A stretch of 34,520 bases of DNA from a virus. How positions within the stretch are numbered: the first letter of the stretch is position 1; every line of letters starts with the position of its first letter. Positions 9,804 to 33,161 of this stretch are shown here, piece by piece. The stretch is from IMG/VR virus record IMGVR_UViG_3300049847_000077, positions 1 to 34,520 of that record; one strand, written 5' to 3'. The notes beneath the pieces are model-generated. The model had not been told where the DNA came from. It did no database searches and saw only the letters and a program-made list of their open reading frames with translations. A program made the translations under genes and the position numbers.

Positions 9804-11525
9804 CTATTGTGTTTTTTTGCCGCCAACTTGTGACCATTTCCCATTTACTACCATCCACTTGCTACCATCATCACCTGTCGCCGTAGTGCCGTTTTTGTAG
9901 TTATTTGCAGGAGGTAATCCTGTTGTAACTACTGGTTGAGTAATCGCTGTTTCGGAAGCTGTTTTTTCTGGCTTGAACATTGGATTAGCGGTTGAGTATT
10001 TGTCTAGTTCATCCTCAAAACCAGAATCTAGCTGCCCATGTTTTCGCTCGTATTCACGCGCCATTTTAGCAACTTCAATAGACCGATCGTTCATCTTTTT
10101 GGTTCGGTCTAGTAACAGTTTACGGCCTTCAGGTGAATTGCTTAATGATACGGTTGTTTGTTCAAGGGCTTGTCTGTCGCCTTCGCTCATTGCGCCAGGG
10201 AGCAGATTTACGCCCCCTTGATTTTTAGCCTTCAAAAACATCTCAGTTGTAATTTGTTTAATTGCTTCTTCTTGAGGTAATCCAGCAACATCAATACCAA
10301 AAGTAGAGGCTAATGACTTAAGCTTGCTCATTGTCTGAGCGCCACTACCTGACGACAATCCAGACGTATCAAGCAATGTCGATAACCGATCAATGTTTGA
10401 TTTATTACTCAAAGCGGACCTATATTCATCACTGTAAGAGTTCGAAAGGCCAGCATAGTGCTTCGTTCTCTCAAGGCTATAAAGCTTTGATCCTTCGCTT
10501 TGAACTGGTATACCACCGCCGCTAGATTGCTGTGGTTGTGGTTGCTGACCATTACCGTATTTGTCCATCCATGCCGATACAGCTTGTTCACGTGATGATG
10601 GATCTTGTATGGTTAGCAGTTTTTTAAGTTGTTCTTGTGGAGTTCCTGCTACTTCTCCAAGTCTGCTTTGTTGTACTGGTTGAGGCGATCCACCACCAGC
10701 TCTATCTACCAGTGAAGATCTAAGAACTAAAGATGTAGATCCATCAATATTATTTACTGGAACGACTTCTTGTTTAGATTTAGCTCTTTCAATTGCGGTA
10801 GTTTCAGCGCCTTTAATACCCGCATTAGATTCTGAATACCCTGGAGCCGTAGTTATCCCACCAGTATTTACATTAAATACCTGACCTGAGTCAGTTTTTG
10901 GGTTATAGACCTGCGTTCCATCTGGCAATATATTTAGGTCGCCCTGTTTTGCTACAAACGTTGCATCATTCCGTGCTTTACCGGTTTCATATTGCCCAAT
11001 CTGCAATGGGTTTTGACCCTTGGCAGCCATATTTTTTTCTTCATCGGTCATGAGCGTATAATTTTTAATTATGTCGTTTGCCAGTGTCTCATTGCCATCT
11101 TGATACGCCGCCAACGCCTGAGCCATTGCTGAATTTTTACGGTTCTCAGCAGCAGATGGCGGAACTGCTCCATCAACTTGTGCGCTAGGTTGCGGTGCGC
11201 TTGTGCCTTGTCCTTGATTGACCGCTGAAGATCCGCCACCTAAACCAGCCATTTTATTAAACTGATCTGTTCGGTATTGCATCAACTTTCCGGCGATTTC
11301 GGTATTTTTCTTGTTGATGTCTTCTTGCATCTTGTTGCCAAAATAACCTTGCGCAACGTCACTCACTAAAGATAGAGGGCTTTTTGGGATAGCCCATCCG
11401 CCAACCATTTCAGTACCTTGTGATGGCTGCATAGCTCGCTGGCGTAACAGATCAGCAAACTGCTGTTTTCGTGCTAAATCTTGCTGCATTACTGATAAAT
11501 CAGGAGGAACGAATGATCCAGCCAT
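9804..11525 (-). CDS. Internal virion protein candidate, 573 aa
   Basis: A strong ribosome site AGGAGG precedes ATG 11525. The N-terminus (DLARKQQFADLLRQRAMQPS) is helical, followed by the phrase GGWAIPKSPLSLVSDVAQG, which I associate with structural proteins of BPP-1-like and related podophages. The middle is low-complexity, rich in Q, S, G and P; the C-terminal third is helical and ends in a short basic, beta-like tail. No catalytic motif is visible. It sits between the S74-domain protein and the larger internal protein, so a role in the ejected core is the best guess. Confidence 0.55.
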   Translation of the reverse strand: MAGSFVPPDLSVMQQDLARKQQFADLLRQRAMQPSQGTEMVGGWAIPKSPLSLVSDVAQGYFGNKMQEDINKKNTEIAGKLMQYRTDQFNKMAGLGGGSSAVNQGQGTSAPQPSAQVDGAVPPSAAENRKNSAMAQALAAYQDGNETLANDIIKNYTLMTDEEKNMAAKGQNPLQIGQYETGKARNDATFVAKQGDLNILPDGTQVYNPKTDSGQVFNVNTGGITTAPGYSESNAGIKGAETTAIERAKSKQEVVPVNNIDGSTSLVLRSSLVDRAGGGSPQPVQQSRLGEVAGTPQEQLKKLLTIQDPSSREQAVSAWMDKYGNGQQPQPQQSSGGGIPVQSEGSKLYSLERTKHYAGLSNSYSDEYRSALSNKSNIDRLSTLLDTSGLSSGSGAQTMSKLKSLASTFGIDVAGLPQEEAIKQITTEMFLKAKNQGGVNLLPGAMSEGDRQALEQTTVSLSNSPEGRKLLLDRTKKMNDRSIEVAKMAREYERKHGQLDSGFEDELDKYSTANPMFKPEKTASETAITQPVVTTGLPPANNYKNGTTATGDDGSKWMVVNGKWSQVGGKKTQ

Positions 11526-11526
11526 T

Positions 11527-12540
11527 TTATAAACCTCCTATTTTCGAGTAGTCTACAGCGTAATATCCGTTATCCTGCATGTGTACAGAATCAGGTATTT
11601 GTTCGATAAGCTCTTGAGCAATTACACCTAGATGGCGTTTATCTGTGTCTGATTCGGTTTTGTAGTTGAACAGATAAATATTAACACCATTGCTTAGTTC
11701 ACCGACTTTTTCAATGTTTTTCTTCAGTCGAATATCTGAAAACATCATGTACGCCATACCAGCATCTTTTATTCCGTTAATCATGTTGTTTTGCTGTCCT
11801 ACCTTGGCATTGTACAGTCCTTGGTTGTATTGAGCCTGACCTTGAGCGGCACCAAGGTAATCAGCCCCGCCAGTGGTTGCTTGCATTGGTGTATTCGTGA
11901 AGCTTGGCATTGACACTTGCGAGCCAGAACGGACAGCGTTTAACATGTTTAATGGCTGGTTTTGCAGTGCCGTCTTAAGCTGGAGCTGCTGATTTTGAGC
12001 ATTTTGACCAACGTTAATCCCATTCAAAGCGGCCTGCATACGAAGGTCATTTTCGCTTTGGCTTTGTTGGGTCATGGCATTATTGTATGCCTCAGAACCT
12101 TGCATAATCCCTTGATTAGCTAGTTGAGACTCAAGCGCTTTGCGTGATTGCTCCATTTGCGGCTGAAAGCGAGCCATTAAGGCATCTTGCCCAGTCTGTC
12201 CAGCATTCACCATTGATGCAGGTAGATTAGCTTCTGTTATGTTATTGCTCAGCGCAGAGTCAACATATCCAAGCCCACGACCTGCCAGGCTAGATAATCC
12301 CAAACTTGTTTGATTTTGCTGGTTTAATAATTGTTGTTGTGCTGGTGATAAATACTGCTTTGCAGTCCACCCCGCATCAGGATCAGTTCCTTCATGCGTA
12401 TAAGTTAGCCCACCATATGGCGTTTCTTGATTGACTCGATTGGCTTTAGTTGCATATCGTGCGGCATCTAAATTGCCAGCGGCTGTCTGTTGAGCTGCTG
12501 CTGCATAGTCTGGTGCCGCTGGCATTGATGGTGCGCACAT
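11527..12540 (-). CDS. Virion protein with C-terminal Peptidase S74-like (intramolecular chaperone) domain
   Basis: 337 residues. Residues 1-266 are A-, Q- and N-rich and helical, unlike a fibre shaft. From 267 on, FSDIRLKKNIEKVGELSNGV starts an S74 (endosialidase-type chaperone) domain; Ser268 and Lys273 have the S-x4-K spacing of the catalytic dyad, and HLGVIAQELIEQIPD is the second conserved block. The family trimerises and cleaves itself off fibre proteins. The domain here is about 71 residues, shorter than usual. SD AGGGG precedes ATG 12540. Most likely an internal or tail-associated protein. Confidence 0.72.
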   Translation of the reverse strand: MCAPSMPAAPDYAAAAQQTAAGNLDAARYATKANRVNQETPYGGLTYTHEGTDPDAGWTAKQYLSPAQQQLLNQQNQTSLGLSSLAGRGLGYVDSALSNNITEANLPASMVNAGQTGQDALMARFQPQMEQSRKALESQLANQGIMQGSEAYNNAMTQQSQSENDLRMQAALNGINVGQNAQNQQLQLKTALQNQPLNMLNAVRSGSQVSMPSFTNTPMQATTGGADYLGAAQGQAQYNQGLYNAKVGQQNNMINGIKDAGMAYMMFSDIRLKKNIEKVGELSNGVNIYLFNYKTESDTDKRHLGVIAQELIEQIPDSVHMQDNGYYAVDYSKIGGL

Positions 12541-26527: not shown

Positions 26528-26682
26528 CTATAACTCCTGTACGTAATTACATCACGAATAGTCGATGCACCTACCCCGTATTTTTTAGCCAGTGACTCGT
26601 AACCTCTGCCTCTGATGTAAGCCAAATGCGCGGATCTAATCTCACGCACTTGGCTATCAGTCAGCGATCTACGGCGGGTCAT
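26515..26682 (-). CDS. Small helix-turn-helix protein, 55 aa
   Basis: The ATG (26682-26680) shares its first base with the stop of the helicase-methyltransferase gene (TAATG). MTRRRSLTDSQVREIRSAHL leads to YESLAKKYGVGASTIRDVI, a clear helix-turn-helix of the resolvase/transposase-tail type, ending TYRSYRWVN. Such 50-60-residue proteins occur in many phages and probably bind DNA; no partner enzyme domain is fused. It overlaps the following gene by 13 bases. Confidence 0.72.
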   Translation of the reverse strand: MTRRRSLTDSQVREIRSAHLAYIRGRGYESLAKKYGVGASTIRDVITYRSYRWVN

Positions 26683-28877
26683 TATGAGAATAAATCCATA
26701 GTGCCAATCTTTGCAGATTCGATGTTTTTAATTGCCTGCTCGTAATAGCTTGGTTTTAGCTCGCTCCCGATGAATCTTCGGCCCATTTTGATAGCTGTGT
26801 AACCTTCACTACCAACACCAGTAAAAGGGCTGAATACTAAATCATCTGGCGCGCTCCAAAGGTTCATCGCGCGTTCGATAACATCTAACTGTAAAGGGCA
26901 GATATGCTTTACATCATCATCTTCGCGTGCTTCTTTAAAATTCAGAGTGCGGCTTTGGTTGATGTCAAACCATACCGGGCTTGCGTATTGCTGCCACAAA
27001 TCAACTGGGAACTCATCTGGTGTGTGGCTGATTGGTTTTGTGTTGTCTCCTGGTTTACGCATAATCACAAGGTAGTCAGCTAAACCTTGGCGACTCATGC
27101 TTGAATCTTTCTTGATCGTCTTGTGTAATAGTCCGAGTGCCTTTGTGCGCTGCATGGCTGTCACTGGATCTTTCCATATACATACCTCTGAATGATAGAT
27201 CCAGCCTTTCTCAACAAACAAGCGGATCAGTTCGCCTCGGAAGTCGCGGATACCAATAAAACCATCATTTACTTTAGACGTTGGCAAATTCATGCAATGC
27301 ACGGCCATTAGTCGCCCCGGCATAGTGATGCGGTATAGCTCATCAACTAAGTAACCAAAGTGCTGATAAAACTCGCCATGCCCTTTGCTGTTGCCCATGT
27401 CTCGGTCGCTGTTTGAATAGGTGAATAGCGATGCAAAAGGAGGGCTGTAAATCGTAAACCCGATTGAGTCTGATTCAATCTCACGCGCCAAATCAATACA
27501 ATCTGCATTATGGATTGTGAAGCCGTCACCTTCGTACACTTGGCGCACATACTCAGTCTTTTCTTCTGACAATCCAAAAATTTCCTTTTTCATTGACTCG
27601 CTCATGTATTTCACCATTTCTTCGCCCATTGTTTTGTTTTGCGATTCTTTGCGCTTGATGTTCTCAACCACTGCACCCTCTGACTCAGCGCTGATAACGT
27701 GAACATGCACTTGTTTTGTCTGTCCGAACCGATAAAACCGGCGGATGGCTTGGTAATACTGCTCCCATGAGTCAGAAATCCCAACGAATGCAGTATGGTT
27801 GCAGTGCTGCCAATTCATACCGAACCCTGCTATTGACGGCTTGGTGATAAGTACTCGCAGTTCACCATTCGTAAACGCGGCGATCTTTTGTTCTTTCTGG
27901 TCGATTGAATCAGATCCTTGAACGTCTGCGCTTCCTGGGATTGATTTGCATAGCTTTTCGCTTTCTTCATTGCGATGGCACCAGATAACCCACTGCTTGT
28001 CACTGGCGTTCACAATTTCTGCACACTTAGCCACTCGATCATCAATTGACTCTTTGCGTGCTTGGTTGCGCTCTAATAAACCTGTAGCGATGTCGGCGAA
28101 TAGGCCAATCGTTGATTTAGACTCAACCACATGATCGTGCATGATTAAATCTGGTAATTCATAACGCGAACCATCAAAGCCCAAGTCTGCTGGACTGCGA
28201 ATAACAACAGACCAAGTTGATAGCCATTCCCAAAACTTTGCTTTGCCGTGGCCTTTTAAAATCCAAGTCCCGGTATCTCCTGCATCATTAATGAAATACA
28301 TGGCAAGCATCTCAGCCATCGTCATCAATCCAAGCAATTCAGCCTGGTTCCCAAGTTCCATGAAGTCGTTAGGGCTTGGCGTTGCGGTGCATGACAGGCG
28401 GTAAGGCACGTTTTTACACGCATCAATAATTGCGTTGCGCGTCTTGCCGTCTCGGTTTTTAATAATTGACGATTCATCCAGCACAATTCCGTGGAATTCG
28501 TCAAAATCAAACCGATCTAGCATTTCGTAATTGGTGATGGTTATTCCTGGAACTACTCCATATTGATCGCGGCAATAGTTGATTGTGATTCCGAACTTCG
28601 CTCCTTCATTTACGGTTTGATGTGCAACACATAATGGAGCCAGAATCAGCACGTTTCCGCCTGTTTCTTTCACAACCTCATCCGCCCAACTTGTCTGCAT
28701 CAATGTCTTACCTAAACCAGTATCGGCAAAAATAGCAGCACGGCCACGTTTAACCGCCCACTTCACAATGGCGCGTTGAAAATCAAACAGGTTTTTATTC
28801 AAACTATCCGCATCAACATCATGACCAGATATGATTGGATTAACCTTCTTTAACTCTAAAAACTCGTTGTAATCCAT
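26682..28877 (-). CDS. SNF2-type helicase fused to DNA methyltransferase
   Basis: 731 residues. Residues about 1-430 are an SF2/SNF2 motor: Walker A ADTGLGKT at 51-58, DESS box (LDESSIIKN) at 133-141, TATPS motif III at 164-168, and motif VI QAIRRFYRFGQ at 376-386. From about 445 an amino-methyltransferase follows: SPPF (motif IV) at 478-481 and SPFTGVGSEGYTAI (motif I, FxGxG) at 683-696, in the order IV ... I of beta-class enzymes. SPPF suggests N4-cytosine or N6-adenine methylation. No nuclease motif is visible. ATG 28877 lies behind an attenuator-like element. The fusion could modify phage DNA while translocating; anti-restriction is an inference. Confidence 0.85.
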   Translation of the reverse strand: MDYNEFLELKKVNPIISGHDVDADSLNKNLFDFQRAIVKWAVKRGRAAIFADTGLGKTLMQTSWADEVVKETGGNVLILAPLCVAHQTVNEGAKFGITINYCRDQYGVVPGITITNYEMLDRFDFDEFHGIVLDESSIIKNRDGKTRNAIIDACKNVPYRLSCTATPSPNDFMELGNQAELLGLMTMAEMLAMYFINDAGDTGTWILKGHGKAKFWEWLSTWSVVIRSPADLGFDGSRYELPDLIMHDHVVESKSTIGLFADIATGLLERNQARKESIDDRVAKCAEIVNASDKQWVIWCHRNEESEKLCKSIPGSADVQGSDSIDQKEQKIAAFTNGELRVLITKPSIAGFGMNWQHCNHTAFVGISDSWEQYYQAIRRFYRFGQTKQVHVHVISAESEGAVVENIKRKESQNKTMGEEMVKYMSESMKKEIFGLSEEKTEYVRQVYEGDGFTIHNADCIDLAREIESDSIGFTIYSPPFASLFTYSNSDRDMGNSKGHGEFYQHFGYLVDELYRITMPGRLMAVHCMNLPTSKVNDGFIGIRDFRGELIRLFVEKGWIYHSEVCIWKDPVTAMQRTKALGLLHKTIKKDSSMSRQGLADYLVIMRKPGDNTKPISHTPDEFPVDLWQQYASPVWFDINQSRTLNFKEAREDDDVKHICPLQLDVIERAMNLWSAPDDLVFSPFTGVGSEGYTAIKMGRRFIGSELKPSYYEQAIKNIESAKIGTMDLFS

Positions 28878-28890
28878 TTTCTCAATCCAA

Positions 28891-28994
28891 TAAAAAAGGG
28901 TTTGCGCTGTTCTCTCATCTTTCGATGTTGGCAGACCGGAACGAGTACCGGCAGAGGACAGCGCAAACCCTACTCGTTTTTAAATGTCTGCCAA
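28891..28994 (-). ncRNA. Attenuator-like or pseudoknot leader element B
   Basis: On the - strand in order: TTGGCAGAC (28994-28986) and AACGAGT (28978-28972); stem arm AGGGTTTGCGCTGT (28971-28958); loop holding ACTCGTT (28946-28940) and GTCTGCCAA (28936-28928), exact complements of the two upstream segments, plus a hairpin CATC-GAAA-GATG with a GNRA loop (28926-28915); arm ACAGCGCAAACCCT (28910-28897) pairing perfectly over 14 bp; then further T residues to 28892 (TTTTTTATT including the last arm base). The stem plus T run resembles an intrinsic terminator with a 47-base loop; the upstream segment would form a competing 16-bp pairing or a pseudoknot. It lies 15 bases before the helicase-methyltransferase start. 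Confidence 0.55.
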
Positions 28995-29015
28995 GACAAT
29001 CCGAACTATAAACAT

Positions 29016-29219
29016 CTATTTGCTAATGTGCAAGTATTCCTGCCGTTTTTTTACAGTTTCATTCACTGCTTGCTCAAACGTTGAACAGTCGCGCTCTACT
29101 ATCCCTTGCCATTTCTCGTATCTGAATTTACTTAGGCTACACGGTGCCCATCCAGCACGGCGCATGTCTGGACTTGATCCGCGTAGATTCCAGTGTTCGC
29201 ACTCCAAACATTTAGCCAA
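29016..29219 (-). CDS. Small Cys-rich (zinc-binding) phage protein, TTG start
   Basis: 67 residues. The start is TTG 29219, with GGGAG nine bases upstream; no ATG fits and the opening (L/M)AKCLECEHWNLRGS is the usual start of this small phage family. Cysteines at 4 and 7 plus two later ones (WAPCSLSKF, RDCSTFE) form a likely C4 zinc site. It starts inside the end of the YbcO-like gene and is followed by leader element B. Function unknown. Confidence 0.68.
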   Translation of the reverse strand: MAKCLECEHWNLRGSSPDMRRAGWAPCSLSKFRYEKWQGIVERDCSTFEQAVNETVKKRQEYLHISK

Positions 29220-32859: not shown

Positions 32860-32984
32860 ATACCGCACTCCCGTGCAATACGTTTGATAGCTGCTTCGTA
32901 TTGTTCTGGTGTTGAACCTGGATTTTTAGCGATCCATTCGTTTTTAAGTCTTTTGTACTCAAGATAAACTTTAAGTATTGCCAT
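32856..32984 (-). CDS. Small phage protein, 42 aa
   Basis: ATG 32984 is chosen for TTGGAG eight bases upstream; the open frame further up is only the leader element. Sequence AILKVYLEYKRLKNEWIAKN then PGSTPEQYEAAIKRIARECGI: helical throughout. First gene after leader element A and coupled to the winged-helix gene by ATGA. Function unknown. Confidence 0.6.
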   Translation of the reverse strand: MAILKVYLEYKRLKNEWIAKNPGSTPEQYEAAIKRIARECGI

Positions 32985-32999
32985 GTGAAAACTCCAAAT

Positions 33000-33104
33000 A
33001 AAAAAGCCACTTAGTTGATCGGAGGGATACCCGTTATGTGTACGCAAGAGTTGACACAAAACGAGACCGATCATCTAAGTGGCCTGTTTAGTCTCTTATG
33101 CGTA
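33000..33104 (-). ncRNA. Attenuator-like or pseudoknot leader element A
   Basis: On the - strand: upstream segment TACGCATAAGAG (33104-33093); stem arm GCCACTTAGATGATCGG (33083-33067); loop of 44 bases containing CTCTTGCGTA (33050-33041), which pairs with the upstream segment over 10 bp with a 2-base bulge; arm CCGATCAACTAAGTGGC (33022-33006) pairing at 16 of 17 positions; then TTTTTTATTTGGAG leading into ATG 32984. Shares with element B the order anti-segment, arm, complementary loop, arm, T run, ribosome site, although the sequences are unrelated. Confidence 0.55.
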
Positions 33105-33122
33105 AGTTGCCCATCCCGTCCC

Positions 33123-33136
33123 CACGGGTGATGCGA
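33123..33136 (-). other. Short GC hairpin in the leader of the replication genes
   Basis: CCCGT, loop GGGG, ACGGG on the - strand (33136-33123), upstream of leader element A. No T run follows. It may be part of the same structured leader. Confidence 0.35.
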
Positions 33137-33161
33137 GCAAGTTAAATATTAGCGTAAAAAG

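Follow-up and report, generated by a model that had tools for sequence, protein, structure and literature searches.

A phage leader RNA family with two pseudoknots and a terminator-like stem

A helicase-methyltransferase gene (26682–28877, minus strand, as are all window positions below) in the 34,520 nucleotides of phage DNA from IMG/VR analyzed here (hereafter, the window) is preceded by a long inverted repeat. The question is whether this repeat belongs to a functional RNA and, if so, what that RNA controls. A preliminary description read the locus as an attenuator or pseudoknot setting the expression of the fusion enzyme, and most of its observations hold. The perfect 14-bp inverted repeat with a 47-base loop is present (28958–28971 with 28897–28910) and in fact extends over 19 positions with one mismatch (28953–28971 with 28897–28915); it is followed by the T run (28892–28897), and the start codon is indeed nearby, at 14 rather than 15 bases from this run. 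The loop contains an exact 9-bp complement of an upstream segment (TTGGCAGAC/GTCTGCCAA), a second exact complement that spans 8 rather than 7 bp (AACGAGTA/TACTCGTT), and the GNRA hairpin CATC-GAAA-GATG. The 16-bp competing helix proposed from these complements involves real pairing but resolves into two conserved pseudoknots, PK2 (6 bp) and PK1 (~6–8 bp). Two hairpins, P1 and P4, and a promoter-like sequence just upstream, TTGCAC-17-TATAGT, had been overlooked.

The element and its relatives

In the 5'–3' direction, this element (element B) and its relatives start with a sigma70-type promoter (predicted in element B at 29005–29033, with TTGCAC at 29028–29033, a 17-nt spacer and TATAGT at 29005–29010) and the P1 hairpin with a UUGNNN hexaloop (28985–28998; a 4-bp UGUC/GACA stem and the loop UUGGCA, 28989–28994, which is the 5' strand of PK2). 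These are followed by a linker that provides the 5' strand of PK1 (AACGAGUA, 28971–28978, forming 8 bp with the P4 loop and located immediately 5' of P3), the 5' arm of the 19-bp terminator stem P3 (28953–28971; 18 bp and one mismatch in element B), and the P4 hairpin (CCGG-UACUCGUU-CCGG, 28936–28951), the loop of which (UACUCGUU, 28940–28947) is the 3' strand of PK1. The second half consists of the NNNCAA strand of PK2 (UGCCAA, 28928–28933, complementary to the P1 hexaloop), the P5 hairpin (CAUC-GAAA-GAUG, 28916–28927), the P3 3' arm (28897–28915), the U run (28892–28897, its first U closing P3), and a ribosome-binding site and start codon (GGAUUGAG and the helicase-methyltransferase start at 28875–28877, together 28875–28888). 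The stem of element B has a score of 43, and in 100 rounds of dinucleotide shuffling of the whole window, no stem scoring at least 33 with a crossing complement of at least 7 bases arises; the folding z is −3.4 with the pseudoknots left out of the folding. A small ORF with CxxC motifs (29016–29210) overlaps the predicted promoter of element B with its 3' end. Such an ORF is likewise found upstream of many class I loci (e.g., L092 and L074), and its stop codon TAG, by eye, often lies within the −10 hexamer TATAGT in the relatives.

Element B is real and belongs to a large RNA family. A scan of IMG/VR with the pattern TTGGCAG...CTGCCAAC...TTTTTT identifies at least 119 stretches, and clear homologues are the majority of the matches listed. 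A second scan, constrained by nothing but the 5' arm of P3 and the beginning of P4, with the U run and the strands of both pseudoknots left free, identifies 108 stretches, and a third one, built only on the double swap UUGGUC/GACCAA that was first noted in a single relative (L007), identifies 54 loci, 50 of which are confirmed by a covariance model. This model, built from 32 members, includes neither PK2 nor PK1 among its base pairs, so that the support for the pseudoknots described below is not built in by way of the structure; it assigns 88 bits to element B and 51–107 bits to most other members, and the E-values of the family loci range from about 1e-10 to 1e-25. Altogether, the pattern scans yield well over 150 family loci, chance raw pattern matches (e.g., L109, L077 and L082) being left out; these are loci rather than independent lineages, and many are near-identical.

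The carrier phages are known from metagenomes only, and their terminase genes are diverse: some are about 28–44% identical to that of the window in the pieces that match, and others do not match it. Nucleotide searches of isolated phages (with the window element and four members) and of plasmids (with the window element) return only chance pieces, and the architecture is absent from five isolates that have related helicase or terminase genes. Among bacteria and archaea, scanned with a pattern at one genome per species, 69 matches are obtained, all of which score at chance level with the model, so that no link to a host or prophage emerges. The family is new to Rfam 15: at the curated (gathering) score, there are zero matches for the window and 16 relatives, and permissive E-values add only chance matches (E up to 5). 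No published description of this RNA was found in the openly available literature. A phage with a helicase-methyltransferase 78% identical to that of the window (L002) carries this element as well, with other letters in the stem, and in the close helicase relatives L003–L006 the element is absent at the helicase gene. Two helicase-methyltransferase loci contain other crossing repeats 5' of a U run (TGTGTCAGGATCAT.. at L010 2842–2903 and TTACCGCGTCCG.. at L044 3816) that the class I model does not match.

Covariation of the helices and pseudoknots

Related phages had been suggested as the place to look for changes that break the pairing of the two arms, and the opposite is found. In an alignment of 79 members (A2; P1, P3, P4, P5 and PK2 counted together), 95.0% of the cells contain standard pairs, and 33 of the 41 pairs are altered on both sides with pairing kept, a number reached in none of 500 shuffles; the covariation score is 0.565, compared to 0.170 for shuffled and 0.10 or less for slid alignments. 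In a separate set (A6), 26 of 34 pairs show two-sided compensatory change. The arms of P1 co-vary across the 79 members of A2, with pairing that is solid up to the predicted transcript start and decays upstream of it. Two-sided compensatory changes affect 17 of the 20 pairs of P3 and all four pairs of P4, which is 100% paired; in P5, four of the five pairs co-vary, and the stem is conserved, whereas the loop differs between members. Seven junction residues are invariant (U57, G58, U78, C79, C86, G116 and A117), and a mismatch in the middle of P3, mostly A·C, is retained in 65 of the 78 distinct rows. This mismatch (A2 columns 47 and 127; A·C in 52 of the 79 rows) divides the lower part of P3 from the upper part.

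PK2 is 99.8% paired in the 79 members, with the loop identities UUGGCA (41 paired rows), UUGGCG (19), UUGACG (11), UUGGAG (5), UUGGCC and UUGGUC; UUGGAC/GUCCAA was found later, so that the co-variation extends across at least seven identities. For PK1, 47 distinct linker/loop pairs show a mean of 6.3 contiguous bp, compared to 4.0 (maximum 4.5) in 500 re-dealings of the loops. In almost every class I member, the end of PK1 abuts the start of P3, with zero linker. Thus, the sequence comparisons strongly support an RNA structure that includes the helices and both pseudoknots. The co-varying kissing loops also provide ready-made mutants for testing function. In one element (L308 948–1057), PK2 is mismatched, the 5' half being of the UUGGCA type and the 3' half of the UUGACG type; this element looks recombinant and represents a natural test case.

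The strand order PK2-P3-P4-PK2'-P5-P3' resembles the P1a-P2a-hairpin-P1b-hairpin-P2b order of the HDV-like or theta ribozymes found in phages, which are characterized by a J4/2 junction that begins with the catalytic cytosine (PMC10879173). This candidate was rejected: there is no J4/2, P5 (columns 86–116) abutting the P3 3' arm (column 117) in 79 of 79 rows, and, unlike in the ribozymes, the 5' strand lies in a hairpin loop and the RNA ends in a U run.

Predicted control of transcription

A −10-like hexamer most often ends 10–11 nt 5' of the P1 loop (51 of 76 members), so that transcripts are predicted to begin at the 5' arm of P1, in element B at about 28997–28998. At the other end, a U run directly follows P3: among 89 members picked without requiring one, all 89 have at least five U and 88 have at least six. 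The element thus has the sequence features of an intrinsic terminator, a G+C-containing stem with a U run at once after it, and P3 is predicted to cause termination; in class I, the start codon normally lies 10–15 nt 3' of the U run. The genes behind the element encode DUF1376 and Lin1244_N-type proteins, which are probably replication proteins, HNH and NUMOD4-HNH nucleases, ParB-like proteins (identified by eye), small unknown ORFs, and the helicase-methyltransferase. Given this diversity, the RNA is not tied to the fusion enzyme, so that the role originally proposed, although the element does precede that gene, is too narrow. The genes share no common pathway and hence give no hint of a ligand; judging from gene content, the controlled units are probably early genes.

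In plasmid pIP501, RNAIII causes premature termination of repR, and pT181-type attenuators display alternating a-b-a'-b' pairing, as does the family leader. An attenuator controlled by a phage antisense RNA in the manner of pIP501 would follow a similar logic, with a terminator 5' of what is often a replication gene. However, promoter-like sites with at least nine matches occur on the antisense strand of 6 of 122 loci, compared to 24 of 122 in shuffles; on the sense strand, where strong matches are frequent upstream, they occur in 54 of 122. With antisense sites not enriched in this simple consensus test, many downstream genes unrelated to replication, and two intramolecular pseudoknots in the leader, antisense control is disfavored and appears highly improbable.

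Function and direction of control are inferred here from the architecture: the leader very probably switches transcription of the downstream genes. Under the preferred reading, with a probability of about 0.6, the element is a 5' leader made from its own sigma70-type promoter that works as a conditional intrinsic terminator (attenuator), and premature termination, as suggested at the outset, appears to be the best reading of element B. RNA synthesis would start at P1, and the P1 hexaloop would pair with the strand that separates P4 from P5 (PK2) as this strand emerges; the linker would pair with the P4 loop (PK1), and a compact double pseudoknot would precede the P3 3' arm. Because PK1 directly precedes the P3 5' arm, with no linker, only the upper half of P3 could form in this fold, the lower half next to the U run staying open and the polymerase reading through. 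When PK1 is absent or displaced, P3 would zip fully, and transcription would stop at the U run, just 5' of the ribosome-binding site.

In the geometry of H-type pseudoknots, PK1 should be incompatible with a fully zipped P3 and compatible with its upper ten pairs; the partner of PK1 sits in P4, atop a 19-bp stem about 50 Å long. On the strength of the 0-nt connector, PK1 is expected to be mutually exclusive with the lower part of P3. The competition with the stem that had been postulated for the whole pairing would accordingly involve PK1, which, for steric reasons, does not seem able to coexist with the complete terminator stem, and not PK2. Since the lower part of P3 beside the U run makes the terminator, PK1 would represent the antiterminating state, formed first and then challenged by the P3 3' arm. 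The mean energies are about −28 kcal/mol for P3 (−12 for its lower half) and about −7 kcal/mol each for PK1 and PK2; P3 wins at equilibrium, so that the choice between the two states would have to be set by folding kinetics or by a factor bound in trans.

In c4 antisense RNA (RF01695), a phage leader RNA, paired loop sequences steer termination; the family leader differs in that the complements reside in the same RNA, and it has no Rfam match. Another phage RNA leader concerned with termination is the put RNA of HK022, which is located at an early promoter and is not known to have a terminator of its own. A pseudoknotted leader could similarly act on RNA polymerase, conferring resistance to its own and later terminators: like putL, which sits just 3' of its promoter (PMC9378689), the leader starts at a promoter, and the seven invariant junction residues could form a contact surface. 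However, put consists of two stem-loops, about 70 nt in total, and acts via the zinc-binding domain of the polymerase β' subunit (PMC9378689). The family leader, with its two pseudoknots and terminator, has a different fold, which excludes membership in put, and it shows no Rfam similarity, so that an action on the polymerase is unlikely. By analogy, the family probably works most like terminator-coupled riboswitches or attenuators, in which a conserved fold of the 5' leader forms at the expense of an intrinsic terminator stem 5' of the ribosome-binding site; in the crcB and pfl motifs, the terminators overlap the conserved fold (PMC2864571). The phage leader differs from these systems in that its terminator stem belongs to the conserved fold and co-varies throughout, the downstream genes share no pathway, and the family is found in phages and has no known ligand; membership in a named family is not claimed.

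Multiple elements and class II leaders

In some of the phages, there are two or three elements, each of which has its own, different kissing sequence. The 41.7-kb contig G020 contains three class I elements (L362, G020:20000–28200) with the PK2 loops UUGGCA, UUGGCG and UUGGCC (i.e., GCA, GCG and GCC), located 5' of the genes for an HNH nuclease, a NUMOD4-HNH nuclease and a 740-aa protein; L434, L454 and L432 each have two class I elements, the loops being all different. The only contig observed with two same-loop elements is L149, where near-identical inverted elements (11166–11278, plus strand, and 12409–12521, minus strand) lie close to the contig end and may be an assembly artefact. In this small sample, the differences within genomes hint that cross-pairing has to be avoided. 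They would also fit a small-RNA gene, the product of which, a stable RNA of ~110 nt, would act in trans, e.g., by loop pairing, with the downstream gene transcribed by read-through. The combination of a promoter, a compact RNA and a terminator is in line with such a gene, and the UUGR start of the hexaloop agrees with the YUNR U-turn motif; the class I position, 10–15 nt 5' of the start codons of many unrelated genes, makes it improbable.

The window itself contains two elements, B at 28.9 kb and A at 33.0 kb. Element A (33000–33151), probably the “leader element A” of the preliminary description, has the same architecture as B and a folding z of −4.35; the class I model matches it only weakly (14 bits). 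The element comprises a −10-like TAATAT (33146–33151), the P1 region (33107–33140), PK2 (ACCCGU, 33124–33129, with ACGGGU, 33029–33034), PK1 (UACGCA, 33099–33104, with UGCGUA, 33041–33046), P3 (33067–33085 with 33004–33022), and a U run (33000–33005), followed by the ATG (32982–32984) of a 42-aa ORF that, by eye, resembles the ORF behind the class I element in L172. About 7–8 nt separate PK1 from P3.

The arrangement of B and A resembles that of at least ten class I loci in which a second element, denoted class II, lies 3.2–4.9 kb downstream on the same strand. Class II leaders retain P1, PK2, P3, P4 and the U run, with a longer and strongly variable pairing (UGUGUCAGGC, UGUGCGGGCA, UGUAUCCGGC and others). 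Given that they have no clear PK1 and that PK1 of element A is spaced from P3, the switch via PK1 may be confined to class I. Most of the class II leaders precede a conserved non-coding RNA rather than an ORF, which favors transcriptional over translational control. A leader that controls translation or mRNA stability, with the 5' hairpin and the fold protecting the mRNA or the fold hiding the ribosome-binding site, would be in agreement with the location of P1 at the predicted 5' end and with the adjacent U run, GGA-like site and AUG. However, no conserved helix includes the ribosome-binding site, the terminator stem and U run are conserved, and class II leaders are often followed by a non-coding RNA, so that this alternative seems rather implausible. 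With regard to the conditional terminator that is preferred here, the leader may, given the closeness of the start codon, also affect translation.

A more tentative extension, which is possible but far from assured, is that these RNAs form a new superfamily of phage promoter-leaders, in which a double pseudoknot around a terminator stem switches early units, the two or more copies present in many phages, diverged in their kissing sequences so as not to cross-pair, serve as orthogonal switches, and one of these controls a further structured RNA. If so, environmental phages of a common group would time their early genes not by an N-, Q- or put-type system but by an RNA device new to the literature, single genomes with differing loops would provide a natural set of orthogonal RNA switches, and the family RNA would show where promoters lie in phages never brought into culture.

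The conserved non-coding region, of ~255 nt (GACCGTACTGGTCGCGTTAG...CTATTGC), begins about 5–25 nt after most class II leaders, e.g., at L159 2603–2862 (minus strand), L162 9417–9676 (plus), L338 9189–9448 (minus) and L351 9938–10237 (plus), among others. It has no Rfam match, and RNAalifold predicts 56 pairs, 22 of them with compensatory changes; judging from this alignment, the region looks like an undescribed structured phage RNA.
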